From assembly GCA_039028935.1 (NCBI GenBank), contig JBCCHD010000037.1:1-33987 (forward strand): DNA of 33,987 bases, read 5' to 3'. The notes beneath the pieces are model-generated. The model made no database searches. It was not told the origin of the DNA and saw nothing but the letters and a program-made list of their open reading frames with translations. Numbering within the stretch: position 1 is the first letter of the stretch; each line of letters opens with the position of its first letter. The position numbers were made by a program, and so were the translations under genes. Source of the stretch: Pseudomonadota bacterium. GTDB taxonomy: Bacteria > Pseudomonadota > Gammaproteobacteria > Steroidobacterales > SZUA-146. Of the stretch, positions 4,174-33,974 are shown one piece after another.

Positions 4174-4681
4174 GATTGCACCGATGTATTGATTTTTGTT
4201 TGCGCCCGATTCCCCAAGGCACGACTGCCGAAAAGGCTATCAAAGGTGCTTGAGAAAAAGGTGAAGACTGAACGTAATAACGGCGTTTCGTTACATTACT
4301 CAACACATCTCACAATAAAAACCAACTTATGACAAATCAAACGGTCGCGACAACATTTCAAATACGTCAGCCGCTCGCTCGATAGTCATCGCGATTACCC
4401 GCCACCATCCTCCGCGCCAACTCACCGCACGCTGCGGCAACTACCACATTATGTTCAATGCCGAAACATCGCGTTTTCACATTACGATTTCGGCGCGTGG
4501 TACGTTAGGCATCGCACTCGCGCTGTGGACCGTTTTCGGATGACGTCTCTGCCGATCGATTCGTCCTCGGTCCTGCTGCTCACTGATTATCTACGCGCGT
4601 CGCGCGGCAATTATTTTGATACGCTTTTTGCGTTTACTGCGCCTTTATATAAGGAACCTCATCACAAGAAGGAAAGGCAGG
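4174..4681. other. Divergent intergenic region
   Basis: This gap of about 500 bp lies between the divergent PEP-CTERM and mosaic-protein genes. A TATATAA at 4646-4652 is a plausible -10 box about 30 nt before the favoured ATG at 4682, but no good -35 accompanies it. I see no repeat, RNA gene or convincing small gene; short frames here lack ribosome-binding sites. Confidence 0.5.
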
Positions 4682-7648
4682 ATGACTCGGGTACTCAACA
4701 TATTCATCTGTGCACTGCTCACTCACGCAATGCACGCGCAAGCAATTGATTTTGTCTCGAACGACAACGGTATTGAGGAAGCCGAGTTAACACACAAGTG
4801 GGCCTACACATCGTCATTGACCAATCCACTGAACAGCGCGCCAAGTCAACCGGCAAGTTCGCGCGTTGCACTGAAAGGTGATGGTGCGGACGCCGATGCC
4901 GACGGAATTCCGGATGACGCTGATAACTGCGTGCTGGTGGCGAACGCCGATCAGCGAGACTCCAATGGTGACAATTACGGCAACGCCTGCGACTTCGACT
5001 ACAACAACGACTGCTCAGTCAATTTCTTGGATTACGCGGCACTCACCAGCGATTTCACTGCCACGGGCGATCTGGATACCGACGCCAACGGGGACGGCGT
5101 AGTGAACTTTCTTGATATCGGCCAGTTCCCGTCGTTTTTTATGATGCCACCCGGACCGAGCGGCCTCCAAGGCGATTGCGATTCGCCCCCAGTCGACACG
5201 GAGGCGCCGACCGCCAGTTTTTCGCCGTCAACGCTCACGGTGCCATCGGGCATGACCGGCCAGTCCACGTTCACGGCGACTGACAATGTCGGCGTGACAA
5301 CGGGCCCCAATATCCTGTGTACCAACGGGGGCAGCTTCGATGTGTCGATGAGCACCTTTACCGCCGCCACCGTCACGCTATCGACCCAAAGCGTGTGCAC
5401 CGCCACGGTCGGTGATGCCGCCGGAAACGAAGGCATGGCGACGCTCACCGTGACGATGACCCCCTCTAACATGGCCGGTGACTGTCCGCGCACACTGCCT
5501 GCCGTCTCGACGGGCACGTGTTCCATTACGACGGGCACGGGCAGCGCGGTGCTAATTCAAGGCGACGTGTTTTTCGAGAGCGGACTGCTCACCAATGCCG
5601 AGGTGTTAGTTGACGATGGTGACATTGTTTGTGCTGGGTGTGACTGCAGCAGCGAGGCGACTTTTTCAACCGCGACGACGCTGATGTGCACCGATGCCGT
5701 AATCTCTCCCGGGCTCATTAATGGACGCGTCAGCGCCAGCTTCAGCCACAACGTGCCGTTCAACAACAGTGAAAAATACTTGCAGCGACACGACTGGCGG
5801 CGGGGCCAGCGCGGGTTTAGTCAGCTGCCTTCGGGTTTTGGCGGTGGCTCCGACCAGATCGTGTGGGAGGAGCTGCGCAGCGTCTTGGCCGGTGTGACCA
5901 GTGCCGTGACAAGTGGTAACCAGGACGGCATGATTCGTAATCTTGACCGCAACGACGAATTCGCCGGTCGCGACACCACGGATGTCGACACCTTTCCACT
6001 CGGTGACAGTAATGGCACACAGCTTATCAATGGGTGCGCCTATCCGGACATCGAAGACGAGACGGCCGCGTTCTCTGCCGTTTGGCGAGTAGCCGAAGGC
6101 ATCGACGCCACGGCCAGAAACGAATTTCTGTGCTTATCCGGTATTGGCGCTGGCAGCACTGATGTGCTGGAGGCACCGGTGGCAATCGACAGCGGTGCTG
6201 GACTGGCCTATGAGGACATTGTGAACACGGTGACGCGCGGCACACGTCTGGTATGGTCACCACGATCCGACACCTCACTGTATGGCAACACGGCGATGGT
6301 GCCCGTGTTCAAAGCATCGGGCGCCAAGATCGGATTAGGCACCATTTGGTCTTCGTCAGGCTCAGCAAACATGGCGCGCGAGTTATCGTGCGCGTCGGCT
6401 TGGAGCGACCGATGGGGCGGGGTGTTCACCGATGAAGAGCTCGTTAGCCTCGCCACAAAGAACGTGGCGCAGATCGCGGGCTTTGGCGATGTCATCGGTG
6501 AAATTGCGGTCGGCAAAGTCGCGGACATCACCATTTGGAGCACGGCAAATCACAGTGATCTTCGTGCCATTATCGATTCTGGGAACGACGATGTCGCCCT
6601 CGTGATGCGCGGTGGCCTGCCGCTTTACGGCGACGACAACCTCATCCAAACACTCGTACCCGCGGACAACTGCGAACTAATCGATGTCTGCGGCCAATCG
6701 AAACGCATCTGCGCGGAGCGGGAGTTTGGCGAAACGTTCGCTCAGATCACCGCAGACGCGCCAGCAGGCGCCTACCCATTGCTGGCCTGCGGCGCCTGGC
6801 CAAATGAACCGTCCTGTCTACCCGCACGCACGACGCCGGATGCGTATACAGGAATTGCGGGTGCCGGCGATGCCGATGGTGATGGGGTCGATGACACCGC
6901 GGACAACTGCGTTGGCGTATTTAATCCACCGACGCCACTGGATCCAGGTGTTCAAGCCGACACAGATAGCAACGGACTAGGGGATTTGTGCGACCTGCCC
7001 GACCCGGTTGCGCCGATCGGTGGCTTTGACCCACCACCACCACAACTGGTCACTGTCTACGAGGTGAAAACCGATCCGACCTTGACCGGCGAACTCATTA
7101 CGATGAACGACATGGTTGTGACAGCCGTGGCAAGCAACGGATTCTGGAGTCAGCTCGATTCAAACAGCGCGGAATTTATTGGCGTGGAAAATTCAGGCAT
7201 CTACAGCTTTACGGCGGAGACACCAACGGTAGCAGTGGGTGATCGCATCACGATTGAACGCGCCAGAGTGAACAACTTCTTTTCGCAAATCCAGCTCAAT
7301 GATCCCGCCGTAGAGATTGAGCAGAGTGGTTTGTCCATCGTGCCAACCCTACTCGACGCCGTGGCCCTGCAGAGTCTGATTTCCGCTCAGGCAAGCAGCC
7401 CATTCGAAGGGGCGTTGGTCACCGTGCAGAATGTCATTGTCACGAACGCCATGCCCCCGGGTGGGCCCGGCGATAGCGGCGCAAACGAGTTTGAGGTGGC
7501 ATCCGGCTTGCGCGTGGACGACGCGTTGTATTTGATTGATCCACAGCCGCTACTGGGAGAGAGTTTTATTTCAATTACAGGCCCCATCTCATTCAGAAAC
7601 AATTTCCTGAAACTGCTACCTCGAAATCAAGCTGATGTCATTCGATAA
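4682..7648 (+). CDS. Secreted mosaic protein: TSP3 + dockerin-like + Ig-like + degenerate amidohydrolase
   Basis: This is an exported 989-residue multidomain protein of unknown function. A signal peptide (MTRVLNIFICALLTHAMHAQA) is followed by a TSP3 calcium repeat (residues about 68-104). Next come two dockerin-type loops, DYNNDCSVNFLD (106-117) and DANGDGVVNFLD (134-145), an Ig/HYR-like domain (about 172-265), and an amidohydrolase-like barrel (about 290-630). A second TSP3 stretch and a C-terminal beta domain resembling an OB-fold complete it. In the barrel the usual ligands are replaced: HxH reads RVS (349-351), the beta-5 His is R469 in RVAEG, the beta-6 His is S504 in IDSGAG, and the beta-8 Asp is I555 in LGTIWSSSGS. 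The surrounding signatures (RHDWRRGQRG, ARNEFLCLSG, WSPRSDTSLYGNT, KVADITIW) are kept, so it looks like a pseudoenzyme. The start at 4682 is preferred over an in-frame ATG 66 nt upstream because GGAAAGG lies just before it and it begins the signal peptide. Confidence 0.8.
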   Translation: MTRVLNIFICALLTHAMHAQAIDFVSNDNGIEEAELTHKWAYTSSLTNPLNSAPSQPASSRVALKGDGADADADGIPDDADNCVLVANADQRDSNGDNYGNACDFDYNNDCSVNFLDYAALTSDFTATGDLDTDANGDGVVNFLDIGQFPSFFMMPPGPSGLQGDCDSPPVDTEAPTASFSPSTLTVPSGMTGQSTFTATDNVGVTTGPNILCTNGGSFDVSMSTFTAATVTLSTQSVCTATVGDAAGNEGMATLTVTMTPSNMAGDCPRTLPAVSTGTCSITTGTGSAVLIQGDVFFESGLLTNAEVLVDDGDIVCAGCDCSSEATFSTATTLMCTDAVISPGLINGRVSASFSHNVPFNNSEKYLQRHDWRRGQRGFSQLPSGFGGGSDQIVWEELRSVLAGVTSAVTSGNQDGMIRNLDRNDEFAGRDTTDVDTFPLGDSNGTQLINGCAYPDIEDETAAFSAVWRVAEGIDATARNEFLCLSGIGAGSTDVLEAPVAIDSGAGLAYEDIVNTVTRGTRLVWSPRSDTSLYGNTAMVPVFKASGAKIGLGTIWSSSGSANMARELSCASAWSDRWGGVFTDEELVSLATKNVAQIAGFGDVIGEIAVGKVADITIWSTANHSDLRAIIDSGNDDVALVMRGGLPLYGDDNLIQTLVPADNCELIDVCGQSKRICAEREFGETFAQITADAPAGAYPLLACGAWPNEPSCLPARTTPDAYTGIAGAGDADGDGVDDTADNCVGVFNPPTPLDPGVQADTDSNGLGDLCDLPDPVAPIGGFDPPPPQLVTVYEVKTDPTLTGELITMNDMVVTAVASNGFWSQLDSNSAEFIGVENSGIYSFTAETPTVAVGDRITIERARVNNFFSQIQLNDPAVEIEQSGLSIVPTLLDAVALQSLISAQASSPFEGALVTVQNVIVTNAMPPGGPGDSGANEFEVASGLRVDDALYLIDPQPLLGESFISITGPISFRNNFLKLLPRNQADVIR

Positions 7649-7675: not shown

Positions 7676-9853
7676 TTACGCGGTTCCAATCGAACGCGGC
7701 GCGTTTTGCTCCGTGTCGGCCATCACTTGACGCATTGGGCTATTCAGCGCCCGGCGCTCGATCGGGCTCGTCGCGGTTTTGTCTCCAACAGATCGCGCGG
7801 CGATAGACGCAAACAGCTGTTCAATGCTGCTCGATTCGCCCACCAAGCGGTCCACAATACAGCGACCTAAAGTCTCATACGCGTCGAATTGCGCTTCGTC
7901 GAAAAACTGGTTCGCCGTCGATTCATGTGGAAATGCGGCATGCTCCGAAGCATACGCATAGACATTGACCGGTGGATCGTCGCAATGTGACGCCTTGATA
8001 TAGAGAATCTGGCCGGTCGAGCCATCGGCATATCGAACGGTGCCAATCGCGCAGGGACTGTATCCGCGTTGTACTTGACACTGTTCGACCAAAGTGGATA
8101 CGTCCATCGAAATCTCCGCGCCAAAGTCAGCTCTTACCCGATCAATGACTTTACCCAGATCAGACAATGTGCACTGAGGATCAGCACCGGCATCACTGGC
8201 AATTATGAATTCGCAGCGGCGGCGTACCAGTTCGTAGATACCCAGATTGTCAAACTGACCGCCGTCAGACAAATGCACTTTTCGGCACGACTCGTCGAGG
8301 CCGGCAGAAAGGATTTCGCGGCCCACCAATGTGAACCAATCGGCGCCAACAAATGGCAAGGCACCTCGCGCTGGATTGTCAGCCCAATAGCCTAGTCGAC
8401 AGTTTAGCAGCGACATTAACACGCTAAGGGAGCGAGAACGCACGAGGCAATTATTGGGATCGACTGCCGCGCCCGATACGGTCGCCGCCGCCGACAGACT
8501 CAGTCGACCACCAAGGTAATCACTCGTGCGCTTGAATCCGGTTGCATGCCCCCCGCAGTAGAGTGACGACAAAACAAAACTGCCGCCTTCTCGATTGCGG
8601 CGCTTCGCGTCTTTCGATGTGCGCGTATTGAGCGTGCAATTAATCAGATGCAACGGTGCGCCACTATACGGCGTCATAGATTGCAGGGCATCTTCCAGCC
8701 CCGTGTCTTTAAGTTGACCACTTCTGCTTTGACAGCTCGGTAAGAACGCCCGCGCAATGCGTGCTCGGTAATAACTGTGCATCGACACCCAGTTGGTGTC
8801 GCAAAACAAACCGACGACTACGCCGACGGCGAGTGCCGCCCAGTACAAGGGTGAGGACAGCAATCCGGTGTGGGCAACCAAGTGGTATGAAAACAGCGCG
8901 CTGCCCGCAAGCACCAGTACCAACGCAACACCGGCGAGTCGACGTCTGGCGGCTGGGCGGTGTTTTCCACGCATTGCACGCCACGCGGCGATCAGGCCGC
9001 CAGACAATGGTGCAAGCCATGTCGCATGCTGTATCGACTGGAGGTGTGTGCCTGAGGCGAGCCGTGCCAGCAACCATTCGTCGACCAGTGTCAGAATTGG
9101 AATGAGACCCACTGCCCCGACCACAACGCCGAACTTTAACGCGCGACCCATCCAACGTCGAAGGCGTAACACGCGCCCGGCCGTTCGCCATCGCCGCACG
9201 CCGCTCACCGCCGCGTAAACCAATACCATTATCGCGTAGCTGGCAAAGCACAATAGCGATGATAGAAGAAATAGTGAATAACCATCGTGGGTGGCGGCAC
9301 CAGCTGGGAGCGAGGCGTAGCGCTCGAGCGGCCAACTGATCGACAGAACGTCGCGACTCATAATTCCCATGAGCAGCAACATCACCGGTAAGAAAACAAG
9401 AAGATTGAGCAGTGTCGACGCCAATATTGAGGCCGCCAGTGTCCAACCACTAAAACCGGTCTCGCTTATCAGGTACTTGCCATGGGCGCGCAGCCAATTG
9501 AGTAATGGTGTTTGCTCGCTGCCCACCGGCGTGTCAAAGAGCGGCGCCGTATTGGATTGCGGCGACTGCCGATGATTGAGTAAGCGGGACACACATGCCC
9601 CGATATAGCCACCACCGGAGACGGTAGAAAGATAATCCACTCGACATAATAAGCCATGGCGATCGAGGCTATTTAGCAAACCGGCGTTAAAAGTCGCTGA
9701 CCGAATGCCACCACCGGATAAAGCAAGACCGACGCGCGGTGCGTCGACGGCCTGCTTGAGCGCTTCGCGACGTCGTTGAGTCCACAGCTGCTCGTCGGCC
9801 GCAACATCGTCAAACGAATGGGTGTATGAGGCGGGTTGTGTAAGCTTACGCAT
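7676..9853 (-). CDS. Membrane-spanning patatin-like phospholipase
   Basis: This is a Ser-Asp dyad lipid acyl hydrolase of the patatin family, 725 residues from the start chosen here. The oxyanion loop is SGGGIRSA (about residues 46-53), the nucleophile is S79 in STVSGGGYIG, and the catalytic aspartate is D530 in LSDGGQFDNLG. Between the two catalytic halves, residues about 130-375 hold five or six hydrophobic helices (for example LLNLLVFLPVMLLLMGI and LVLVLAGSALFSYHLV). The dyad is therefore split across a membrane domain, which is known in some large bacterial patatins. The ATG at 9853 overlaps the stop of the upstream cytochrome gene (TGATG) and has GAGG 8 nt before it, so I prefer it to an in-frame start at 9901. 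Translational coupling to the cytochromes suggests a joint role on a lipid or hydrophobic substrate. Confidence 0.88.
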   Translation of the reverse strand: MRKLTQPASYTHSFDDVAADEQLWTQRRREALKQAVDAPRVGLALSGGGIRSATFNAGLLNSLDRHGLLCRVDYLSTVSGGGYIGACVSRLLNHRQSPQSNTAPLFDTPVGSEQTPLLNWLRAHGKYLISETGFSGWTLAASILASTLLNLLVFLPVMLLLMGIMSRDVLSISWPLERYASLPAGAATHDGYSLFLLSSLLCFASYAIMVLVYAAVSGVRRWRTAGRVLRLRRWMGRALKFGVVVGAVGLIPILTLVDEWLLARLASGTHLQSIQHATWLAPLSGGLIAAWRAMRGKHRPAARRRLAGVALVLVLAGSALFSYHLVAHTGLLSSPLYWAALAVGVVVGLFCDTNWVSMHSYYRARIARAFLPSCQSRSGQLKDTGLEDALQSMTPYSGAPLHLINCTLNTRTSKDAKRRNREGGSFVLSSLYCGGHATGFKRTSDYLGGRLSLSAAATVSGAAVDPNNCLVRSRSLSVLMSLLNCRLGYWADNPARGALPFVGADWFTLVGREILSAGLDESCRKVHLSDGGQFDNLGIYELVRRRCEFIIASDAGADPQCTLSDLGKVIDRVRADFGAEISMDVSTLVEQCQVQRGYSPCAIGTVRYADGSTGQILYIKASHCDDPPVNVYAYASEHAAFPHESTANQFFDEAQFDAYETLGRCIVDRLVGESSSIEQLFASIAARSVGDKTATSPIERRALNSPMRQVMADTEQNAPRSIGTA

Positions 9854-9865
9854 CAATTTGACCTC
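9851..9865 (-). promoter_or_regulatory. TGATG stop/start overlap with Shine-Dalgarno
   Basis: On the minus strand the TGA of the cytochrome gene (9855-9853) shares its A with the ATG of the patatin gene (9853-9851). GAGG at 9865-9862 sits 8 nt before the ATG. This is a standard arrangement for translational re-initiation. It fixes the patatin start and ties its expression to the cytochrome. Confidence 0.8.
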
Positions 9866-12132
9866 GCAACGGTGAGCGTGTCGCGGTCGCCACTTAAGCA
9901 ATCATGTGGCGTATAGTTCACGTTCGTGGGCGCTGCATCGCGATGCACCTTCAAATACTCAACTAAGCTCCAACGCTCCTTGTCGCTCAACAGCGGTCCA
10001 ATGACTCCCGGTGGGAGCGGCTGATCATGACGTTCAGCCCATTCGTTGGCTGTTGCTGAAAAGGCATGTCCGGTATTGCGGTTGCCCGCGATCGATGTGT
10101 CTAGCCAAAAGCCACCCTCGCCGCGCGCTGATGGCTCAGTGACATAGCCGACATGCACGGGATCAAAATCACGCCGTCCCACAAAAAATCGACGAGTGCG
10201 TTGTTCAGGCGGCAGAAGCATTTCATACAGGGACGGCACAGACCCGTTGTGCAAAAACGGTGGCGTGGCCCATACGCCCTCCAAGGGACGTGGTTTATAA
10301 CCCGCCACCTGTTGCGGTAAATCGATTGTGCCGAAGCCCTCCAAACACGTTTGTTGGGCATAGCTAATGTTGTTATCACGGTAGTATTTTTGTTTGATCA
10401 TGATGCCAAGAATATTGAGGCCTTCGCCTTCGCTGACCGACGACACATCAATGGCGGCGAGCGAGTCTTCAAGATGCTGTTCTCCAAACTGTATGTGCCA
10501 CCGTAGCCACTGCTCATGACACGCCTGGTCGCACGACCGTTGCGCGTCGGGCGGGTTCTGTCGCGAGTGCTGTGTTTGAGCGACACTGAGTTCGTCAAGC
10601 GCCGAGTCTATGGCCGCAAAACTGCGCCGTGGCAATTCGATGTCGCGCGCTGTATCGGGATTGGGATAATGTTGAAGTACGTCAGACAGTGCACCGACGG
10701 CGTGACCGCCCTTCGCACGCAGGTCGATCAGCTCTGACAAGTGATAGCGCATTTCCCTTGACAGATAGCGCACATTCAATGGCCGGAGGGCCGCCGCAAC
10801 TTCGCGTTGTGTGAGTCCCGTTGGCGTCAGGTCATAGCGTCGCTCCACAAATCCGGTGGCCGCAGCGGGGTCTGTTCCAATATGCTCGACTGGGATGACC
10901 TCGATGAGCCATTCCATCGACGCACTCGGCTTACCCGGCGCGTTGGCCTGTTGCCGGGCGGGCGATGCGACATGCGGACCGTGACAGCCTTGGCAGTGCT
11001 GCTCAAACAGCGCTTTGCCTGCTTCGGCGTTGTCGGCATCGACGTCACCGAACACCGCTTCGGGCCAGCGAGGGGGTTGCAGTGTTTGCAGGGTATGCTC
11101 GATGGTCTGCAGATTCGGAATACTCGTTGACGAGCTAAAACGCTGCTCAGGCGGCAAGGGTCGGCCGTAATCGTCGGTGAGCAATACACGTGCTCCGACG
11201 CCCAGTGATTCACCTATATTTCGCGACAGCGGTTGACGCACCGAACCGTTATATTGCACCCAGTCGAATTTCCAAATGTTCCACACATATGGATAGCTCA
11301 CGGGCGCATCCCCGACTTGGTAGTTGGCCGCCACTAAGTGGTCGCCAAACACGGTGTTCGCAATACGGCTTAGCGCATCGGTACGCCCATACCCCTCTTC
11401 GACGGGATATAAGTGGCGCAACGGATTGTTTTGCCCGCTCGACATGAGGCGCTTAATGGTCGCCGATAGATTGCGTTTGAGTTCCGTCTTCCCTTGCGGG
11501 TAGCTGTCACCGATCACATTACGGCCGAAGCGATCAAACTTCATCGGGTTGTAGCGTGTGCTGATTAATGAGGCGAGCAATGTGGAGGCAAAACTACCGC
11601 GCTCTACACCGGCAAAATCATGCATCGCCTGTCCACCATCGATGCGCACGGCCAAATGTTCGCCATCGCGTTTATAGTGAATTTCGCCGCTGTGACAGGC
11701 GGCGCAAGTCAGATCCAACATGTACTCGCCCACGGTTGGCTCAAAATGCCGTGCAAAACCGACGGGCAGTTGGTGTGGGTTAGCCGCTGTCGGCTCAGGG
11801 TCAACAAGAAATCGCCATGCTCGCATGTGGTCGGGGTCGGCAAACCGTTTTTTGCCAAGTGGCATTTCCAGATGGACGAACCAATCGTAGCGAAGCGCAT
11901 CATGGGTAGCGCCTTGTGGCAAGGTCGCGCCTTGCCCGGTGTAGTAATAGGTTTGTCTACCCGGAGAGTCTACCGACTCCGTCCAACCCTGATTTAGATA
12001 GACATAGCGATCGACAGGCTCAAGATCGGGTACGGAGTGCGCGGGTAGGCCCACATAGAGCACGAACGCGCCGGTCGCCAGCGCACCGAGCACTAGCACA
12101 CTTGCGAGTAATCTTCGTATCCACTTGGCCAT
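9853..12132 (-). CDS. Membrane-anchored RoxA/MauG-like multiheme cytochrome c
   Basis: This is a large periplasmic c-type cytochrome of the RoxA-like (rubber oxygenase/diheme peroxidase-related) family, 759 residues. An N-terminal uncleaved-looking helix (IRRLLASVLVLGALATGAF) anchors it. Heme sites are CAACH (Cys143) and CQGCH (Cys380); a third, unusual CX3CH site, CDQACH, starts at Cys534. The signature FLHNGSVPSLYEMLLP near the C-terminus and the block GDAPVSYPYVW match the family and the neighbouring paralogue. RoxA-type enzymes cleave polyisoprene with O2, while other members are peroxidase-like, so the substrate here is open. The ATG at 12132 is favoured; a TTG at 12180 would add 16 polar residues before the anchor. 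The gene lies 125 nt downstream of the lipoprotein cytochrome and is coupled to the patatin gene, consistent with one operon. Confidence 0.85.
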   Translation of the reverse strand: MAKWIRRLLASVLVLGALATGAFVLYVGLPAHSVPDLEPVDRYVYLNQGWTESVDSPGRQTYYYTGQGATLPQGATHDALRYDWFVHLEMPLGKKRFADPDHMRAWRFLVDPEPTAANPHQLPVGFARHFEPTVGEYMLDLTCAACHSGEIHYKRDGEHLAVRIDGGQAMHDFAGVERGSFASTLLASLISTRYNPMKFDRFGRNVIGDSYPQGKTELKRNLSATIKRLMSSGQNNPLRHLYPVEEGYGRTDALSRIANTVFGDHLVAANYQVGDAPVSYPYVWNIWKFDWVQYNGSVRQPLSRNIGESLGVGARVLLTDDYGRPLPPEQRFSSSTSIPNLQTIEHTLQTLQPPRWPEAVFGDVDADNAEAGKALFEQHCQGCHGPHVASPARQQANAPGKPSASMEWLIEVIPVEHIGTDPAAATGFVERRYDLTPTGLTQREVAAALRPLNVRYLSREMRYHLSELIDLRAKGGHAVGALSDVLQHYPNPDTARDIELPRRSFAAIDSALDELSVAQTQHSRQNPPDAQRSCDQACHEQWLRWHIQFGEQHLEDSLAAIDVSSVSEGEGLNILGIMIKQKYYRDNNISYAQQTCLEGFGTIDLPQQVAGYKPRPLEGVWATPPFLHNGSVPSLYEMLLPPEQRTRRFFVGRRDFDPVHVGYVTEPSARGEGGFWLDTSIAGNRNTGHAFSATANEWAERHDQPLPPGVIGPLLSDKERWSLVEYLKVHRDAAPTNVNYTPHDCLSGDRDTLTVARSN

Positions 12133-12257
12133 TTCTGCGTCGAACCCTCGCCTTCGCGTTTGTTCGTTCGAGTGTGGCAAATGGACTCACGCGAAACAGG
12201 ACGCGCATCACAGACTGGCACCAGGGTTTTCACTGATCGCCAAAAACACGGGTTAAA

Positions 12258-13901
12258 TCACAGGGTTTTCAGGAAATTGAGCAAATCAGTTTTGCTCGGA
12301 GGAGGTAATTCGGTCCCGAATACATGTCCAGCGTTGCTGTTTCCAGGCAGTGCTGTATCAAACTGAGCATCGCTCGTAATACCCGTATTCAGACCCACGC
12401 GCGTCGCATCGAAATGGTGGCTGATTGGAAAGCGTGTCGGTCGCTCATCGGGCGTCAAGAGTAGATCGGCCAATGTGGGCACCGAGCCGTTGTGCAGATA
12501 CGGTGCACTAGCCCAAATCCCATCGAGCGAACGCGCCTTGTAGTAATCAGGGTGCTGATCGATTTGATCTTTGTACACCTTGTGATACCCCTGCGCGGCG
12601 GCGCGAGCGGCTTTGAGCGGGTGTCGCAACGTCGCGCCGGTGGCGGCATGCACAACAAGATCGATACTTTGCGCGCGTCGTTCAAGTGTCGGCCCGGCAA
12701 ATACGGCGAGTTTTTGGCCTTCAAATCTGCCACTGGCGGCCGTAGCTTCAAGAAAATTATTAACCATGCGTGCATCGGTTCCCACCACGTCGACCGGCGT
12801 CAGCGCGACTTTCACTTTGCGCTTGGGATCGTCGCGGTCAGTGATCGCATGACACGACTCGCAGTGTTGTGCGTAGACCTGTTCTCCCCGTTTGACGCTC
12901 TTGGCTTCCGGCTGCTCGAGCAGGTCTTTCGGCCAGCGTGGCGACTTAAGCGCGTAGAGCCACTCCTGAATGCGACCAAGGTTGTCAAAATGCACGCTCG
13001 AGGGATACCCCAGTTTCGCGTTGTGGCCTGTGATTTCTAACTCACCAAACACCGCGAGCGCGGTCGTCACGTTTTGAAAAAGTGGTCCGGGACCCGCATT
13101 TGGCGCCGACCCATTCCATTGCACTAAATCAAGGTGTGGCGCGCTCCACAACACGGGAAAACTGACCGGGGCATCCGGCACATGACGATTGGCTGGGCTC
13201 TCCAGAAACTGCACACCCACCGCGTTAAAAATCTGCCCGAACGCATCGAGTCGCCCGGGGCCATATGGAACCGGTGTTTGGTTCGTCCGTTGGACGTTTC
13301 GCATCTTTTGCGCCCTTGCGACTAGGGCGTTGCGCAACGATATCTGTTCTGTCTCAGCAACGTTGAGGGCGTTTGCGAATCGCGCAAACTTATCGTCATC
13401 ACTCACTGTCGCACTTAGCGCCTTAATCACCGAGTCTTCGAAACGCTGGAAATCAAACAGGCTCTGCCCACCGTCCAGACGCACAGCTTGGGCATCGATC
13501 ATGACCTGACCCGTGTGACACGCGGCACAGCCAAGACCAACCCAGCGTTTACCGTTGGGGTCGGTATCTTGGGTGAATCCAACGGGTAGGCCATCGGGAT
13601 TCAGCATGGACGGACCCGCATTGAGCAACCCAAACGCGGCCATATGACGAAGGTCGCGAAACGGCGCGCTTGCATGTGGTTGTTCCAGCGCCAAAAACCA
13701 CTCATACGGCATCAGCCGCGATCCGAACGTCGTAAACCAAGACTTTTCTTGGATAGACGCGCTCCAACCCTGCTCCAAATTAATTGCGCCCATGCCCTGC
13801 GGAACGGGATCGCCGCTCACAACGACCGGATCAGAGCGCGAACACGCCGCGAGGCAAAGCGTCGCAACAAGCATCAGAAGTCGTTGATTTGATTGATTCA
13901 T
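12258..13901 (-). CDS. RoxA/MauG-like diheme cytochrome c lipoprotein
   Basis: This is a 547-residue periplasmic diheme cytochrome c and the first gene of the cytochrome/patatin operon. The start at 13901 gives a clean lipoprotein signal (MNQSNQRLLMLVATLCLAAC, lipid-modified Cys at residue 20). In-frame upstream starts at 13934 and 13949 would add a polar extension. Heme motifs are CAACH (Cys125) and CESCH (Cys347). Family blocks are LDGGQSLFDFQRFE, DAPVSFPVLWSAPHLDLVQW and APYLHNGSVPTLADLLL. These recur in the next gene, so the two are tandem paralogues, although this one is shorter and lacks the CX3CH site. By analogy it is a dioxygenase- or peroxidase-type enzyme, or the electron partner of the second cytochrome. 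No Shine-Dalgarno is obvious at any of the starts. The diguanylate cyclase diverges from the same short promoter region. Confidence 0.86.
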   Translation of the reverse strand: MNQSNQRLLMLVATLCLAACSRSDPVVVSGDPVPQGMGAINLEQGWSASIQEKSWFTTFGSRLMPYEWFLALEQPHASAPFRDLRHMAAFGLLNAGPSMLNPDGLPVGFTQDTDPNGKRWVGLGCAACHTGQVMIDAQAVRLDGGQSLFDFQRFEDSVIKALSATVSDDDKFARFANALNVAETEQISLRNALVARAQKMRNVQRTNQTPVPYGPGRLDAFGQIFNAVGVQFLESPANRHVPDAPVSFPVLWSAPHLDLVQWNGSAPNAGPGPLFQNVTTALAVFGELEITGHNAKLGYPSSVHFDNLGRIQEWLYALKSPRWPKDLLEQPEAKSVKRGEQVYAQHCESCHAITDRDDPKRKVKVALTPVDVVGTDARMVNNFLEATAASGRFEGQKLAVFAGPTLERRAQSIDLVVHAATGATLRHPLKAARAAAQGYHKVYKDQIDQHPDYYKARSLDGIWASAPYLHNGSVPTLADLLLTPDERPTRFPISHHFDATRVGLNTGITSDAQFDTALPGNSNAGHVFGTELPPPSKTDLLNFLKTL

Positions 13902-14003
13902 TCGGGAAGTGTAGCCTAAGTCACGTGCCGACATAGCGACGCCAATCACATTAAGTGAAATTCGTGTCGGCGGGTTCCAGAATCGATCAGCGAGTCGTCT
14001 ACC

Positions 14004-15710
14004 ATGCCTTGCAGCGTTCGTAACACACAGATTGCTCTCTTTCTCGCCATGTGGTTACTGGCGGGGTCCGCGGTCGCCGAATCGCTGACGATCAGCGCTC
14101 AGGCGCCCGAACAAAATGCCACATCGGCGCTACTCTTCTTCGAAGACCCCGAGGGTTTATTAACGTTCGACGATGTGCGCACCGCAGAAATCGATGCGCT
14201 CTTTGCATCACACGGATCCGATGGTCCACAGATTGGCTTTACTCCCTCTGCCTGGTGGGTCAAGCTCACGCTGTCGAATCCAAGCGCATCAGCGCTGAGA
14301 CTGTACTTGCGCCAAGACTACCCGCTCATTGACGAACTGGATGTGTGGGTACCGAACGCCAGTGGCGGCTTTGTGCGCATGCAAGGTGGCGACCGGGTAC
14401 GCTTCTCAACGCGACCGGTTCAACATCGCAATGCGCTATTCCCGATTGAGCTGGCGGCCCGCTCCGAATCAACCGTGTACCTGCGATTCGCCTCCGACGG
14501 ACCGATTAACATTGGGCTATCCACTCATCTTGATCAAACCATGATCGAAAAAGTCAGCGTGAGTGAGCTCGGCATCGGCCTGTATTTCGGGGGCTTCCTA
14601 GTGCTGGTCTTTTACAACATGTTCATTTTTGCCGCCGTGCGAGATCGAACATTCATTTTTTATCTGCTTTACCTTGTAAGCTACGGCGCCTACTTTGCCG
14701 TGCACAACGGCATCGCGTTTCAGCATCTTTGGCCTAACAGCCCGTGGCTTGCCAATCAAAGCCTACTTGTGCTGCTGGCGATGACGCTGTTTTTTGGCCT
14801 CATGTTTTCCATGAAGTTTTTAAACATACGCGAACGCTCCGCGGCTTATCTGCGCATTGGTACCGCGTTGCTTGGCATCATCGTTGTGGCGTTCTTATCC
14901 ATCTTTGTACTGCCCTATCAAATGGTCATCGTCGCACTCGCGTTGCTTTCGCTAGCGACCACGGTGCTGATCATCGCCATGGGTCTTTCAAGTCTATTCA
15001 GCGGCTATCGCCCGGCCCGCTACTTTATGTTGGCGTGGTCGGCTTTATTGATCGGCGTGGTCGTCTACATGCTCAAGACCTTTGGCTTACTGCCGCACAA
15101 CACGTTTACGCACTACGGCTTTCAGATTGGCTCACTTATCGAAATGACATTACTGTCGGTCGCGCTCTCAAGTCGCGTGAATGATATGCACAACGCGATC
15201 ATGCAAGACCCACTAACCGGTGTGGGCAATCGACGTCAACTTAACGAACTGCTCGATCTTGAGTTTGAACGTGCACAACGTACTGATGCCCCGCTCGCAC
15301 TGATCATTGGCGATATTGATAACTTCAAACAAATCAACGACACGCACGGCCACTCCAAGGGCGATGAGATCATCCATAAGGTGGCCACGTTCTTTAACGA
15401 CAGCGTGCGCAAACAAGACACCGTGTGCCGCTACGGCGGCGAGGAATTTGCGATAGTCATGCCCAACACCAACGCGTTCGCCGCAGAAGTCATTTCCAAA
15501 CGCTTGCTCGAGGACATTGAACGGAGTGATTTCGGCGGGGTGCCAGTTACGATCAGCGCCGGACTATGCAGCATCCCCGAGCACCAGTTTGACGACGCCA
15601 AAGCGTTCTTCGACGCCGCAGACCAAGCGCTCTATGACGCTAAACTCAGCGGGCGTAATCGAGTGATGGTGTACCGGCCCGGCGAGGCAGACTCGCTGAA
15701 GGCGTCCTAG
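14004..15710 (+). CDS. 7TMR-DISM diguanylate cyclase (GGDEF)
   Basis: This inner-membrane sensor makes cyclic di-GMP from two GTP. The order is a signal peptide (residues 1-25), an extracytoplasmic 7TMR-DISM type 2 beta domain (about 40-180, with TPSAWWVKLTL typical of the family), about seven transmembrane helices (about 190-390) and a C-terminal GGDEF domain. The latter begins DPLTGVGNRRQLNELL at residue 402 and has an intact GGEEF active site at 478-482. RxxD (RKQD) five residues before the active site is an intact allosteric I-site, so product feedback inhibition is expected. At 568 residues it has normal family length. It is divergently transcribed from the cytochrome operon with only about 100 bp between starts, so the two may share regulation. 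The ligand is unknown; DISM2 domains are often proposed to bind carbohydrates. Confidence 0.95.
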   Translation: MPCSVRNTQIALFLAMWLLAGSAVAESLTISAQAPEQNATSALLFFEDPEGLLTFDDVRTAEIDALFASHGSDGPQIGFTPSAWWVKLTLSNPSASALRLYLRQDYPLIDELDVWVPNASGGFVRMQGGDRVRFSTRPVQHRNALFPIELAARSESTVYLRFASDGPINIGLSTHLDQTMIEKVSVSELGIGLYFGGFLVLVFYNMFIFAAVRDRTFIFYLLYLVSYGAYFAVHNGIAFQHLWPNSPWLANQSLLVLLAMTLFFGLMFSMKFLNIRERSAAYLRIGTALLGIIVVAFLSIFVLPYQMVIVALALLSLATTVLIIAMGLSSLFSGYRPARYFMLAWSALLIGVVVYMLKTFGLLPHNTFTHYGFQIGSLIEMTLLSVALSSRVNDMHNAIMQDPLTGVGNRRQLNELLDLEFERAQRTDAPLALIIGDIDNFKQINDTHGHSKGDEIIHKVATFFNDSVRKQDTVCRYGGEEFAIVMPNTNAFAAEVISKRLLEDIERSDFGGVPVTISAGLCSIPEHQFDDAKAFFDAADQALYDAKLSGRNRVMVYRPGEADSLKAS

Positions 15711-23671: not shown

Positions 23672-25075
23672 ATGGTATTTAACACTCCGATTTTCTTACT
23701 CTTTTTTGTTTTTTTCCTGCTGATTTACGGCGTGATTTTGGGCGAGAAGAAGCCCAAGCTCTACTTTATTCTTGTCGCCAGCCTGGTGTTTTACGGCGCC
23801 TGGAACTACCGGTTTATTCCGCTGCTCGTCGGCAGCGCCGTGATTGACTATTACTTGGCACTTGCTATCGCCGCCGCACCGGCGCATCGCAAACGACTGT
23901 TTTTAACACTGTCGGTCGTCATGAATCTGGGCATTCTGGCGCTGTTCAAATACGCCGACTTCGCCATCGAATCGGCAGGTGAGTTCTTATTACTGTTCGG
24001 TGTCGAAGCCTCGTTACCCACGCTCTCCTGGATTCTCCCAGTTGGCATTTCGTTCTACACCTTCCAAAGCCTCAGCTACACAATAGACGTTTATCGCGGC
24101 GACATGGAACCACGCCGGGGACTCGCTCACTTCACAACGGCACTCGCCTTTTTTCCCCAACTGGTTGCCGGACCCATTTTGCGCGCGCGTCAGATTCTTC
24201 CGCAGTTTCATTCGCTGCCGGTGCCCACCTGGGAAAACGCGCGTCACGGATTTTTGCTGATCACCTCTGGGCTGTTCAAAAAAACCATCGCCGACTTACT
24301 GGCGATACCAGTCGCTCACGCATTTGATGGCGATGGACCGGTCAGCCTGCTCGAAGCCTGGACCGGTGCGTTGGCCTTCGCTGGGCAGATTTATGGCGAC
24401 TTCGCCGGCTATACCGACATGGCGATTGGTATCGCACTGGTCATCGGCTTTAAGATCCCACCCAACTTTCGACTCCCTTACTTCGCCGTTTCACCCGTTG
24501 ATTTTTGGCGTCGATGGCATATCTCGCTATCCAGCTGGCTACGCGACTACTTGTACATTCCGTTAGGCGGCCGCAACAATCGCTACCGCAATGTGATGAT
24601 CACGATGCTGTTAGGCGGACTCTGGCACGGCGCCGCCTGGAACTTTGTTGCCTGGGGAGCGTTCCACGGTGTCATTATTATGGCCACACACTACCTGAGC
24701 GGACTCGGTATATTCGCGGCGTTTTCCAGCAGGTCGTCGCGGATGATGACCGTTTTGAAGTGGGCGATTACGTTCTATCTTGTCTTGCTGGGGTGGGTGC
24801 TCTTTCGCGCCACCAGCCTCGACGATGCGCTACAGCTCATGATTAACATGCACACCATCTCCGGTCTCCCGGGGTCGGCGCCGACCGCCTTGGTGGTCTT
24901 CGTGCTCACAATCGTCGCATTAATCGGCATGCATGTGTGGGACTGGTTTGTTATTGCCAAAGGCGATGCCTTTGAAACCAAGCGCTGGCTGTTTTGGCCC
25001 GTGCTCATTCTGATCCAGGCAATTTGCCTTATGACCGGAGAACCGAGTAATGAGTTCATCTACTTCCAGTTCTGA
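23672..25075 (+). CDS. MBOAT family O-acyltransferase (AlgI/PatA-like)
   Basis: This 467-residue integral membrane protein moves acyl groups, usually acetyl, across the inner membrane for modification of an extracytoplasmic polymer. It begins MVFNTPIFLLFFVFFLLIYG, and about ten or more hydrophobic helices follow. Family blocks are PVGISFYTFQSLSYTIDVYRG, FFPQLVAGPILRA, the DFAGYTDMAIGIA segment and FWRRWHISLSSWLRDYLYIP. The presumed catalytic histidine is H319 in GGLWHGAAWNF. Length and motifs match AlgI, PatA and DltB-type proteins. The downstream gene overlaps it by 26 nt and encodes an SGNH-type partner, the usual arrangement. No alginate or peptidoglycan genes are adjacent, so the acceptor is unknown. 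The start is modestly supported by a GAGA-like sequence about 10 nt upstream. Confidence 0.94.
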   Translation: MVFNTPIFLLFFVFFLLIYGVILGEKKPKLYFILVASLVFYGAWNYRFIPLLVGSAVIDYYLALAIAAAPAHRKRLFLTLSVVMNLGILALFKYADFAIESAGEFLLLFGVEASLPTLSWILPVGISFYTFQSLSYTIDVYRGDMEPRRGLAHFTTALAFFPQLVAGPILRARQILPQFHSLPVPTWENARHGFLLITSGLFKKTIADLLAIPVAHAFDGDGPVSLLEAWTGALAFAGQIYGDFAGYTDMAIGIALVIGFKIPPNFRLPYFAVSPVDFWRRWHISLSSWLRDYLYIPLGGRNNRYRNVMITMLLGGLWHGAAWNFVAWGAFHGVIIMATHYLSGLGIFAAFSSRSSRMMTVLKWAITFYLVLLGWVLFRATSLDDALQLMINMHTISGLPGSAPTALVVFVLTIVALIGMHVWDWFVIAKGDAFETKRWLFWPVLILIQAICLMTGEPSNEFIYFQF

Positions 25076-26267
25076 TCAAGCACCCGGCACTCGCAAGATT
25101 TATCTGCGTATTCTGCTCGCGATTGTGCTGGGCATGGCCACTGCATTGGCCAGCGTGCAGGCATTTGTCGCGGCCAATGGTGCAGGGTCTCGTTCAATAC
25201 TGGGCCGAGTCATTGAGGCACAAGAAGCCATTCCATCCATCGCGGGTGAAAAAGAGGACCTCGTGTTGGTGTTTGGTTCTTCGATGGTCGAAGCGGGGTT
25301 TTCGCCACGAGAATTTGATCGCGATCTCGCGGAGCAAGGCATCGATATAAAGTCTTTCAACTTTGGCTTTGGCGGACTGAATCCGCTCTTCCAGGATTAT
25401 CTCTCCCGGCGCATGGTGGAACAATTTCAAGCACAGGACCGGCGCATAAAACTGTTGCTCATTGAATTCAATCCGTTCCAAACGACGGTTACTCGCCGCG
25501 AAGGTGCTCGCGCACTTGAAGAATCGTATATCGCTCTGCTGGCAAGCCCCAAAGAACTATTCGATGTCTTTATGAAAGATCCGGAACGCGGCCTTCGTAT
25601 GTTGCAGATTCGGTATCTGCGGGACGGCATCTCGGCTGAAATGATCACCACGTTTTTTTGGGGTGAACCATTTGAACAACAAGCCCCTCGTACTCAACTC
25701 GTTCAAGAAGAAGGTATCGCCGAAGCACTCGACGAACTGCAAGCGGAACTGGGCAAACGATTTAGCGACGAATACCCCGACTATGACGGCTCTGACTGGT
25801 ACTACCCCTGGCAAGGCGGCGGCACCATACAGTCGGAGCGACCAGCGGAAACAGTGGCTCTTTTTAACGACTACTATCGGCTCACCCAAACCGACTTTCG
25901 CAAAGACAATGCTCGTTTACGGCGCATTGCCACATCGGATATTGTGGATTTGAACTTCGACCCCGAGCTTGTCGACGCCTTTATTCGAATCGTGAACAAC
26001 TTCAAGGTCATCGCCGATGACATCGAAATCGTCTTACTCCCCAAAAACCATCGATGGATTGACAATCCACCCGAGGCGCTTGCGCGACAGGCCGACGTCG
26101 TTGAGCAAATCAAAAAAGCAACTGGTGTACCGGTACGAGACTTTCAGAAAGTCGAGTCGCTGGGCGACGAGATGTTTTCCGATACAACCCACTTGAACCG
26201 CTATCGCGGTGCCGTTATTTTCACGCGACTGCTGGCCGAGCAATATCAACGCACGTTACGGCCCTAA
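25050..26267 (+). CDS. SGNH-type acyltransferase partner of the MBOAT protein
   Basis: This 405-residue protein has a signal anchor (residues about 18-42, LRILLAIVLGMATALASVQA) and a periplasmic domain with SGNH/DltD-AlgX-like features. The nucleophile block is FGSSMVEAGF (Ser77 or Ser78), a Gly-Asn block is FGFGGLNPLF, and the catalytic Asp-His pair is D378-x-x-H381 in SDTTHLNRYRG. In related systems the MBOAT protein passes the acyl group to this partner, which transfers it to the sugar or teichoic-acid acceptor. GGAG lies 9 nt before the ATG, inside the MBOAT gene, so the two are translationally linked. The middle region (about 180-290) is not familiar. The acceptor is not indicated by neighbouring genes. 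Confidence 0.85.
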   Translation: MSSSTSSSDQAPGTRKIYLRILLAIVLGMATALASVQAFVAANGAGSRSILGRVIEAQEAIPSIAGEKEDLVLVFGSSMVEAGFSPREFDRDLAEQGIDIKSFNFGFGGLNPLFQDYLSRRMVEQFQAQDRRIKLLLIEFNPFQTTVTRREGARALEESYIALLASPKELFDVFMKDPERGLRMLQIRYLRDGISAEMITTFFWGEPFEQQAPRTQLVQEEGIAEALDELQAELGKRFSDEYPDYDGSDWYYPWQGGGTIQSERPAETVALFNDYYRLTQTDFRKDNARLRRIATSDIVDLNFDPELVDAFIRIVNNFKVIADDIEIVLLPKNHRWIDNPPEALARQADVVEQIKKATGVPVRDFQKVESLGDEMFSDTTHLNRYRGAVIFTRLLAEQYQRTLRP

Positions 26268-31169: not shown

Positions 31170-33974
31170 CTAGTCCCCGGGCGCAACCTCAAGCTGTGGA
31201 AGAGTCGTATCAATATCCACTACGCCGTCACCGTTTGCATCGATATCGCACGCGTCGCCGATGCCATCGCCATCGAAGTCCGGCTGGGGTTCATCCGCGG
31301 AAGGTTTCGGATTAGGCACGAGCGGACAGTTATCAATCAGGCCCACGTTGCATTGATATCCGGTAAGGCGATCGGGCATGACGCACTCCGCTTTGTCCCC
31401 GTCCACATCCTGATCACAGGTGTCGCCAACCTGATCGCCATCCATATCTTCCTGCGCGGCGTTCGGAATCATTTCGCAATTGTCCTCCGCATCGGGCCAA
31501 CCATCGCCGTCTTGGTCTATTATCGGCCGCACGTGCAACGCCTCGATATCTACCGCTCCCGTACTACGTAGTCGCAGCGACTGCGGTCCCTCGGTTAGCG
31601 AAATAGCTGGCCCGGCGCGCCATGCGAAATCTGAATCACTGGATGATGCAAACGACCAAGCTGCGGTATTGGAAAACGCAAGCGTTGTCACACCATTGCG
31701 ATCGGCAACCGCTTCGGTCCCGCCACTCGGCGAGGTGTAATCAGTCAGCAAGCCACCTGGATTTTGGTGTCGAACTGACGCCTGCAGCCGGTATTTACCT
31801 GCTTGCGGTATGTTGAGTGTAAAACTCAGCGCGTCGGTCGCCGAATCCAAGGCCGCGTACCGCATGACATAGATTCCATCGGTCGGAAGCTCACTGTAGG
31901 TCTCAAATTCCGTGTTGGCACTGGCGGTCATTTCTTGGGCCAACAGCAGTTCCTGGCAGAGTGTTTCGGAACAACCGTCCGAAAAGTTGGATCGAATACT
32001 GCGCAAAATTGGAAGACTAGTCGCCGGCAAAATGCGTTCTCTCGTGCAGCCATTGCCAAAACCAACACAGTGGTGATTGAGCACAGTCATGACTCGGCCG
32101 TGATCATCCAATGAGATTTTCCCATCCCAGGCAAGTTGAAAATAATAGTGATTAACGAGCAGCATAAACTCATTGATCCCCCAATGCCTTTCAAGTTCGG
32201 TAATCGCATAAGTGTAGGCCTGGTTGGCAAACTGAACCGCCTGCCTTGGAGGCGGAACGGTCGGCTGGAAAGGTGGATTTAAGAGATTCTCTTGCTCCGG
32301 CAACTCGATGGAAGTGGCAATCGAGTCGCTAATGACTACCCCACTACTTGTATCCGTCTGCGGGAACGAAATAATGTCGTCCCCTACTTGGCACAGATCG
32401 CCTAAACTATTCTTGTAAGGCGTTCGACATTTGTTCCAAGCAAGATCTCGGTACGTTTCGACTATCACCCTCCCGCAATTATAGGGCTGTTGTCTGGCAT
32501 TGGCGCAGGGGCCTGAGTCTACAGAGTAAACGGTGCTGGCATCCGATAAGATGCCAAACTGTGTATCTGGACCGTGGCCAGAGGTTTCACTAGCACCAAA
32601 CCGCAGCGCATTCACGGTATCAAAGGCTCTCGCATCGTTCTCTAAAAAACGATACAAGTTGTAGCGATGGGCGTTGTGGTCGGCAAATCCCTCCGCGATG
32701 GCCAGACCAAATGGGTTCGATGGAGTGTCGTGATAATCGTACATCAAGTGAACGACATGGCCATACTCGTGGGCCATGGTATACAGATTCTGGGTTTGGC
32801 CACGATCTCTTGCCAACTGCACCGTGTTTCGCTTCTTACTCGGCACTGCGCACCCGCCGTTACCACATTGGGAATTGCCGGAAGGCACAATCGCAACCCT
32901 CAACGGCTTTGGATCTTTCCAGTCGACAAACGACGAGTAGGACCCGAGTGAACTGTTAGCAAACACAGCAAGATCGTGCTTCCAAAAATACACATTTAAA
33001 AAATCATCGTCCGGCGGTGCAATTAAAATCAACTCATCTTGACTGCACGATGCCGTACCGCTAATCACATCGGAATAGGTATTTGTCACAGGATCCCAGG
33101 TTGTGATCAAAGGCTCGCCCGCGGCATGACTGGCACCGTGATCGAGTTCGATCACACAATCCGATCCGTCAGCAGTTGCGCTAAATGCAACAGTGCCCGC
33201 ACTCTCGCTCGTCCTGGGTTGAAGCCGATTCGTATAATTCGATTTAATGACCGTCTTATCGACAAGCGCGTGATTCGGATACTCCTCGTCAAAGACCTCA
33301 AACAGAAGATCGAGCTTTTCGTCAAAGAAATAGACTCGAGAATCATGGCGAGAATCAGCAAAACGACTCACTAAGCTGCCACGCTCGGCATCATAGTATC
33401 GTTCGAGCAATTCAATTTCTCCGTCCACTAACCGAGACACGCGTGCGATAAGTGCCGAACGTTCTCGCGGCGTTGCGAGGTTCTTGAAGACGTCGGGTGA
33501 ACTCAATCCACCGACAACGCTAGTCAGCTGGCCCTGCTTATCTAAATAGAGCTTTAGCACGCTCCCGAGGACGGGGAACCCGTTAATCTGAGATTGAATG
33601 CGAATCGAATGAGTCCGATTTAATCGCCGGGTTGCGACGCGATAGGACATAGGGTTATCCGACGCGTGAGCCACTTGTTCGCGATACGGCATCGGCAAGT
33701 CGGGTGCGACACATCGCAAAAACGCCGACAGCGAGTTGGAATCCTGGAAATCCGTCGCGGCACAATCAGGCGCAAGCTTGTTTCCAACTAGGTAGCGTAG
33801 CTGGTCACCCTCAACGTCAAAAAACCGTTCGTCCGGCGACCCTCGCGTAAACTCGGCAACCTGGTATCTCAGGTCAGAAGCGGCATTATGGGTCATTGGC
33901 TGATTGACACACCCCACAGAAGCGCCAGTTGCAGCCAACAAAACCAAATGCTTGACAAGCGCTGACGGCCGCAC
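31170..33974 (-). CDS. Lipoprotein zinc metalloprotease with FTP-like propeptide and TSP3 repeats
   Basis: This 934-residue surface or secreted protein begins with a probable lipoprotein signal (LVKHLVLLAATGASVGC). Residues about 110-160 resemble the fungalysin/thermolysin propeptide (RIQSQINGFPVLGSVLKLYL, then LTSVVGG), an intramolecular inhibitor. The gluzincin active site is HEYGH (402-406) with a third ligand E428 in AIAEGFADHN, 21 residues later. A carbohydrate-binding-like beta-sandwich lies at about 690-815 (YRLQASVRHQNPGG, SLRLRSTGAVDIEALHV). TSP3 calcium repeats run from about 818 to the end (DQDGDGWPDAEDNC, DFDGDGIGDACDIDANGDG). The start used is a GTG at 33974, 14 bp from the window edge, and the frame remains open beyond it, so the true start may lie outside. 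It converges on proA. The substrate is unknown; export with propeptide activation is likely. Confidence 0.85.
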   Translation of the reverse strand: MRPSALVKHLVLLAATGASVGCVNQPMTHNAASDLRYQVAEFTRGSPDERFFDVEGDQLRYLVGNKLAPDCAATDFQDSNSLSAFLRCVAPDLPMPYREQVAHASDNPMSYRVATRRLNRTHSIRIQSQINGFPVLGSVLKLYLDKQGQLTSVVGGLSSPDVFKNLATPRERSALIARVSRLVDGEIELLERYYDAERGSLVSRFADSRHDSRVYFFDEKLDLLFEVFDEEYPNHALVDKTVIKSNYTNRLQPRTSESAGTVAFSATADGSDCVIELDHGASHAAGEPLITTWDPVTNTYSDVISGTASCSQDELILIAPPDDDFLNVYFWKHDLAVFANSSLGSYSSFVDWKDPKPLRVAIVPSGNSQCGNGGCAVPSKKRNTVQLARDRGQTQNLYTMAHEYGHVVHLMYDYHDTPSNPFGLAIAEGFADHNAHRYNLYRFLENDARAFDTVNALRFGASETSGHGPDTQFGILSDASTVYSVDSGPCANARQQPYNCGRVIVETYRDLAWNKCRTPYKNSLGDLCQVGDDIISFPQTDTSSGVVISDSIATSIELPEQENLLNPPFQPTVPPPRQAVQFANQAYTYAITELERHWGINEFMLLVNHYYFQLAWDGKISLDDHGRVMTVLNHHCVGFGNGCTRERILPATSLPILRSIRSNFSDGCSETLCQELLLAQEMTASANTEFETYSELPTDGIYVMRYAALDSATDALSFTLNIPQAGKYRLQASVRHQNPGGLLTDYTSPSGGTEAVADRNGVTTLAFSNTAAWSFASSSDSDFAWRAGPAISLTEGPQSLRLRSTGAVDIEALHVRPIIDQDGDGWPDAEDNCEMIPNAAQEDMDGDQVGDTCDQDVDGDKAECVMPDRLTGYQCNVGLIDNCPLVPNPKPSADEPQPDFDGDGIGDACDIDANGDGVVDIDTTLPQLEVAPGD

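Follow-up and report, generated by a model that had tools for sequence, protein, structure and literature searches.

A putative oxylipin module in a Steroidobacterales contig: two diheme FadCcp-type enzymes, a cPLA2-like acyl hydrolase and a divergent receptor cyclase gene

The stretch of DNA analyzed here, referred to as the window, is the whole of positions 1 to 33,987 (33,987 nucleotides, forward strand) of contig JBCCHD010000037.1 (assembly GCA_039028935.1), from a gammaproteobacterium of the order Steroidobacterales. It contains three consecutive minus-strand genes, here named CYA, CYB and PAT, and beside them a divergent gene for a membrane receptor, which together may form a module that produces and probably senses oxygenated fatty acids (oxylipins). 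What was computed is the order and overlap of the genes, their haem and catalytic motifs, the family scores and fold matches of their products, and the recurrence of gene pairings.

CYA (13901..12258; open reading frame, ORF, from 13949) encodes a diheme c-type cytochrome lipoprotein of 547 aa with the lipobox LAAC at its N-terminus and two CxxCH motifs. CYB (12132..9853; ORF from 12180) encodes a membrane-anchored diheme c-type cytochrome of 759 aa with a single N-terminal hydrophobic segment and, again, two CxxCH motifs. PAT (7676..9853) encodes a membrane-embedded putative acyl hydrolase of patatin type, 725 aa long, in which five segments are hydrophobic (mean of at least 1.6 over 19 residues). 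The stop codon of CYA and the ATG of CYB are 125 bp apart, a gap in which a simple scan found no terminator-like site, and the TGA of CYB (9855-9853) and the ATG of PAT (9853-9851) have an A in common, giving a TGATG overlap. An earlier note on this DNA, made from its letters and ORFs alone, had described this row of genes and the overlap; the ORF calls and motifs bear out the row, and the overlap is real. That finding did not include the receptor gene (14004..15710, plus strand), which lies head-to-head with CYA and encodes a DISMED2 extracellular domain, a 7TMR-DISM region and a GGDEF diguanylate cyclase domain, as identified by Pfam. The 102 bp between the two divergent genes (13902..14003) presumably hold both promoters, although a consensus scan found no sigma-70-like site there. 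On its other side the trio is flanked by an amidohydrolase-like gene.

Both cytochromes match PF21419 (RoxA-like_Cyt-c) and belong to the NCBIfam family NF040606 (di-heme-cytochrome C peroxidase), with 531.6 bits for CYA and 492 bits for CYB against a cut-off of 150, whereas the equivalog models of RoxA, RoxB and RoxC give them only 38.9-58.5 bits against cut-offs of 900-1000. The RoxA-like label of the earlier note stands as regards PF21419 and the fold, in that the predicted model of CYB (predicted local distance difference test, pLDDT, 81) aligns with RoxA (4b2n_A) over 393 residues at Z 14.1 and 4.0 A, but membership of the Rox families, and with it polyisoprenoid cleavage as a family trait, is rejected on the Rox scores. 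The haem features of the FadCcp/NF040606 group, namely two CxxCH motifs, a third axial His and a MauG-like PxxHNGS motif, are all present, and C143/C146/H147, C380/C383/H384, H628 and H689 (CYB numbering) are invariant in 13 aligned members. At the inter-haem position occupied by W251 in PA2077 and W302 in RoxA, CYA has Trp (VQWNG), CYB has Tyr (VQYNG) and PA2078 has Ser; the stretch with the equivalent of RoxA F317 (F269 of PA2077) is gapped in the alignment for both CYA and CYB, which leaves that residue without a confident placement.

A link to fatty acids comes from Pseudomonas aeruginosa, in which the tandem genes PA2078 and PA2077 are described as encoding the oleate 7,10-diol synthase and the 10S-dioxygenase, respectively (PMC4496055). 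A tandem pair in genome G810 (genomes are designated by G numbers and loci by L numbers) has its CxxCH histidines at 130/365 and, with the start shifted by 8 codons, at 130/375, in agreement with the table of that paper, and the first protein of the pair has Ser at the inter-haem position, like PA2078. This pair is therefore likely to be orthologous to PA2078/PA2077, and because its members score 488 and 529 bits with NF040606, the family includes fatty-acid enzymes. FastTree trees were built from 70 NF040606 members and then from 79, the second without the distant L126_5748 and with ten additions. CYA groups with its counterpart at L009, a locus in a metagenome-assembled genome (MAG) of Lysobacterales (support 1.0), inside the clade of the G810 pair, whose support is 0.69 in the first tree and 0.939 in the larger one; CYB sits in a different clade (0.997, second tree). 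With 32% identity and separate clades, the two cytochromes are paralogues, as the earlier note called them, only in the wide sense of sharing a family. Family and clade suggest that CYA and CYB are putative oxygenases of long-chain unsaturated fatty acids.

The match of PAT to PF01734 (Patatin) is 31.5 bits against a gathering cut-off of 27.7 and covers residues 43-132 only, and that to PF01735 (cytosolic phospholipase A2, cPLA2) is 15.8 bits, below the Pfam cut-off of 23. In the AlphaFold model (mean pLDDT 72.5), the best fold match is human cPLA2 (1cjy_B; Z 25.3, 392 residues, 3.8 A), closely followed by GIVD cPLA2 (5iz5_B; Z 25.2, Foldseek E 2.8e-7), with CapE (Z 19.5), PlpD (19.0), CapV (16.9) and plant patatin (15.6) lower. 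The motifs GGGIRS (R51), TVSGG (S79) and SDGG (D530) all stand at the expected patatin motif positions, and when PAT is aligned with 18 relatives each of the three key residues proves either invariant or conserved to at least 90%. A helical membrane segment separates the Ser half from the Asp half. No C2 domain was found in PAT by Pfam. We infer from the model that PAT may work like cPLA2; because it falls below the PF01735 cut-off, it is described as cPLA2-like in action and not as a member of that family. Among PAT relatives that have no cytochrome neighbour, nearby genes include one of CMAS type (cyclopropane synthase; L177, by Pfam) and one like GMC oxidoreductases (L178, by eye).

Whether PAT and the diheme genes belong together was assessed in drawn samples of genomes from the class, the phylum, the order and one family (f154); loci were counted, not genomes, and some genomes supplied two loci. 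In the class draw (369 genomes), NF040606 above cut-off is present in 19 genomes and PAT (E 1e-50 or better) in 17, and the two co-occur in 5, against 0.9 expected (Fisher p 9e-4, or 5e-3 without the window's own genome). The order draw (396 genomes) holds, besides the window's own genome, 8 that carry NF040606 (E 1e-60); two of these, from two other genera (L204, L205), have CYB followed by PAT on one strand, with the genes abutting or overlapping, which brings the genera of the order with linked CYB and PAT to three, the window's included. Farther afield, two loci of another family (L129, L142) have the order PAT-SGL-CYB-CAT, where SGL is an SMP-30/gluconolactonase-like gene and CAT a catalase-family gene, and at L009 PAT, truncated at the contig end, is convergent with CYA. 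In PLSDB, PAT-like matches occur in 39 records and CYB-like matches in 61 (60 of the 61 listed); among the matches listed, seven records have both (four from Methylobacterium, three rhizobial plasmids), all with the genes less than 6 kb apart, six at up to about 2.3 kb and L202 at about 5 kb from the nearer of two PAT copies. In the cytochrome tree these PAT-diheme pairs are spread over four clades. Of 54 NF040606 genomes, 5 have a near full-length PAT match (at least 294 bits): it is linked to the diheme gene in the window's genome, G721 and G739, which are also the sources of the 3 of 26 PAT genes from the class and family draws that have a cytochrome beside them, lies about 19 kb from the diheme pair in G298, and is on another contig in G143. 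In the named genome collection, one PAT locus in 13 adjoins a cytochrome (L009). The earlier note had named a lack of conservation of the trio outside this contig as a refuting condition; among the loci surveyed, the exact CYA-CYB-PAT trio was found only in the window, but pairs of CYB with PAT and of CYA with PAT recur elsewhere. The note's broader suggestion, a coupled hydrolysis and oxidation of acyl lipids, gains support from this gene neighbourhood in several lineages and from the predicted cPLA2 fold.

Some plasmid loci have further features. On the symbiotic plasmid pNGR234a of S. fredii NGR234 (L087), genes for a catalase, a hypothetical protein, a diheme enzyme and a patatin-like phospholipase stand in a row; this patatin neighbour is of another subfamily, lies under the Pfam cut-off and was left out of the PAT counts. 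The surroundings of PAT and diheme genes on Rhizobium plasmids carry caspase family and lysozyme annotations at L089, and trypsin-like and phospholipase D-like ones at L201.

Homologues of the receptor gene stand divergently beside the diheme gene at L009 and L204-L210, with 260-365 bits over the DISM part, and Pfam confirmed DISMED2, 7TMR-DISM and GGDEF in those of L009, L204, L205 and L206. The head-to-head arrangement is present in 8 of the 9 order genomes with NF040606 at E 1e-60, or 9 of 10 when L009 is counted; a scan of the other loci for the DISM part gave a match in L118 only, about 6 kb away. These homologues are putative counterparts, identified by similarity at these loci rather than against the background of other DISM genes. 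Seven of the nine receptor-linked loci come from one family, five of them from one genus without PAT (L206-L210), and so do not count as independent cases of linkage; two further cases come from the window and L009.

The model that we favour, with moderate confidence, is an oxylipin module in which the cPLA2-like PAT frees fatty acids, the diheme enzymes oxygenate them and the receptor cyclase probably senses the product. PAT, as an integral membrane protein of the cPLA2/patatin type, would hydrolyze membrane phospholipids to release unsaturated fatty acids, as its fold and conserved catalytic residues suggest. The exported CYB, CYA or both would then add O2 to the fatty acid to form a hydroperoxide, in keeping with their family and clade, and the hydroperoxide would be converted further by one or both of them, as by PA2077 (dioxygenase) and PA2078 (diol synthase); either cytochrome could serve either step. 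Finally, the 7TMR-DISM/GGDEF protein may respond, in the periplasm, to a product or to the state of the lipids and change the level of cyclic diguanylate (c-di-GMP), a role suggested by the conserved head-to-head linkage. The enzyme half of this module is supported by comparison. A more tentative extension, possible but doubtful as a whole, is a self-contained bacterial oxylipin circuit parallel to the animal eicosanoid cascade, in which PAT would free endogenous fatty acid, diheme dioxygenases would take the place of lipoxygenase or cyclooxygenase, and the 7TM receptor cyclase would sense the product and set c-di-GMP. In such a circuit bacterial oxylipins would have a membrane receptor, and DISMED2 domains a new class of ligand.

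The second step of the module can be compared with the neighbours of NF040606 genes at 66 loci, namely the window, L009, six plasmid loci, L173, L174 and 56 loci from the genome draws (the 3.7-kb contig of L060 is too short for neighbours and was excluded). A haem-enzyme gene lies near the diheme gene at 34 of these loci, 25 with the catalase family and 9 with a P450, never both together, and 32 loci have neither. The catalase-family gene overlaps the diheme gene in the ORF calls or lies at most 100 bp away at 21 of the 25 loci (three of these with over-long ORF calls), and the P450 gene is adjacent or one gene off at all nine. In the CYB clade of the second tree, 21 of 29 members have a catalase-family gene; the remaining eight are those of the window and of L204-L210, the latter seven loci all belonging to a single other family of the order. 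No PF00199 (catalase) match was found at E 1e-3 in the window's genome, which is 96.9% complete; the same model matches the proteins of L129 and L138. Pfam placed the catalase-family proteins of L129 and L138 above cut-off and that of L087 below it, and recognized the P450s of L094, L106, L121 and L130; the others were identified by similarity. The mutual exclusion of the two neighbours is as expected for alternative second steps, and we infer that each may act on the hydroperoxide made by the diheme enzyme. The P450 neighbours were considered as CYP74 and rejected, given an ordinary [FL]GxGxHxC[LM]G loop and, in the four scanned, matches to PF00067 and only distant NCBIfam P450 models.

Other features of these neighbourhoods were observed. 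Loci with a P450 beside the diheme gene instead of a catalase-family gene are L086, L094, L102, L105, L106, L107, L111, L121, L130 and L203. Those that pair a catalase-family gene with the diheme gene, possibly a widespread unstudied enzyme pair, include L112-L120 (except L115), L127, L129, L142-L147 and L174, and the N-termini read in such pairs are hydrophobic, so the proteins are probably exported or membrane-anchored. At L100, L103, L104, L129 and L142 the CYB-type gene has an SGL gene as its immediate neighbour, and a catalase-family gene is present as well (Pfam was run on L142 only). At six loci of one genus (L133, L134, L135, L137, L140, L141), a diheme ORF of 919-944 aa is directly preceded by a TPR gene; L140, the only TPR locus scanned, has a class III nucleotide cyclase domain.

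Several observations weigh against the oxylipin module. Its weakest points are that activity, substrate and signalling are predictions, that its spread is patchy, and that CYB has Tyr in place of the bridging Trp of RoxA and PA2077, so that its chemistry may differ. PAT has no apparent signal peptide and may therefore free fatty acids on the cytoplasmic side while the cytochromes are exported. In the catalase-family neighbours read by eye, the position just ahead of the presumed distal His holds Ala, Val or Gln and not Thr, which makes a coral-type allene oxide synthase less likely. At the sensing step, DISMED2 is predicted to sense carbohydrates, according to PMC8846402, and genome G012 (L092), from another family of the order, lacks the receptor linkage and has a catalase-family neighbour of the diheme gene instead. 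As to spread, 59 of 63 NF040606 loci from the genome draws are without a PAT neighbour (it is present at 2 of 56 and 2 of 7), and none of the 23 other PAT loci of the class and family draws adjoins a cytochrome, at least four of them being on contigs shorter than 7 kb; PAT is thus an optional partner. The two other genomes of the genus (92% and 84% complete) have neither an NF040606 match above cut-off nor PAT, which makes the locus patchy even within the genus. One of the two does have a remnant of 88 NF040606 positions interrupted by three in-frame stops, at G001:C1:19439-19720 (L025), which may be what is left of a decayed copy.

An explanation that starts from the family name, di-heme cytochrome c peroxidase, is lipid-peroxide repair, in which PAT would clip oxidized acyl chains, the diheme enzymes would reduce the freed hydroperoxides or H2O2 like classical bacterial cytochrome c peroxidases, and the catalase-family neighbours would serve peroxide defence. 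Phospholipase A2 enzymes can serve membrane repair, and the catalase-family gene beside 21 of the 29 CYB-clade members fits this account as well. We nevertheless regard it as unlikely, because PA2077, one of the characterized members, is described as generating fatty-acid hydroperoxides and not as removing them (PMC4496055), P450 genes take the neighbouring place in other clades, the window's genome gave no catalase match, and a receptor cyclase is not an obvious repair component. The rarity of linkage noted above, with most PAT relatives elsewhere lacking a cytochrome neighbour, would also be expected if the genes were neighbours without a common pathway, the diheme enzymes serving signalling or oxidation and PAT membrane remodelling. 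Because the pairing recurs across four cytochrome clades, with a gene overlap in the window and abutting or overlapping genes at L204 and L205, this is improbable.

The cleavage of a polyisoprenoid or other hydrophobic polymer by a RoxA-type enzyme, coupled to hydrolysis, as proposed in the earlier note, is very improbable: PF21419 and the RoxA-like fold of CYB speak for it, but the Rox scores lie far below their cut-offs, the fold of PAT is that of a phospholipase A2, and the lipoprotein and membrane anchors of CYA and CYB fit a substrate in the membrane better than rubber outside the cell. There is, lastly, only a very slight chance that PAT is a cell-killing effector of the CapV/CapE type, anti-phage or toxin-like, whose place beside the cytochromes is accidental or reflects membership of an island. 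The structures of CapE and CapV do match PAT, the PAT relative at L142 has a weak PADLOC match (phospholipase effector, 14.3 bits), and caspase- or trypsin-like genes accompany the rhizobial loci L089 and L201; however, the four window proteins match no PADLOC family at E 0.01, the cPLA2 fold match is clearly better, and CYB-PAT linkage extends over three genera of the order.

Elsewhere in the window, large proteins with thrombospondin type 3 repeats are encoded at 4616-7648 and 31170-33974, the former with an additional match to part of an amidohydrolase domain. At 23672-26267 an MBOAT O-acyltransferase gene overlaps a gene of 405 aa without a Pfam match, perhaps as a polysaccharide acetylation pair.

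The individual parts of the locus are of known kinds; the novelty lies in combining a cPLA2-like enzyme, FadCcp enzymes and a DISM-GGDEF receptor, of which no description was found among the matches listed in a search of the open-access literature. CYA and CYB resemble RoxA, RoxB and RoxC in the PF21419 signature and, for CYB, in the diheme fold, and differ from them in family scores, in the lipoprotein or membrane anchor and in having a phospholipase-type partner. Animal Group IV cPLA2 (1cjy, 5iz5) supplies fatty acid for dioxygenases, and PAT is like it in fold and in the positions of the GGGxR, Ser and Asp motifs; it differs in being bacterial, in the helical membrane segment between its catalytic halves, in its PF01735 score and in the lack of a C2 domain by Pfam. 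Catalase-related allene oxide synthase and hydroperoxide lyase are reported to act downstream of a dioxygenase (PMC5617202, PMC8124189), a likeness proposed here for the 21 CYB-clade loci elsewhere at which a putative dioxygenase has a catalase-family partner; the window's genome, without a PF00199 match, and the absence of Thr in the partners read mark the difference. The occurrence of NF040606 genes near catalase-family, P450 or second diheme genes points to a large, little-described set of bacterial oxylipin pathways.

The closest comparison is with PA2077/PA2078 of P. aeruginosa. Both systems have tandem, exported diheme genes of the NF040606/FadCcp family with the same haem and HNGSVP-type motifs, CYA falls in the clade of the likely PA2077/PA2078 orthologues, and a sensor gene adjoins the enzymes in both, whereas the two cytochromes of the window come from different clades. 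The P. aeruginosa oxylipin system ODS is described as needing exogenous oleic acid, and at least one of its oxylipin receptors as still unidentified (PMC6377657); its sensor is a LysR regulator beside the diol-synthase genes. The window cluster, in contrast, includes a phospholipase-type gene and a 7TM receptor cyclase, with no LysR gene among its flanking genes. With oxygenases, a phospholipase-type enzyme and a conserved receptor cyclase together, two gaps of ODS would become testable, in that the cell's own membrane could be the source of the substrate and the adjoining gene would encode the receptor.

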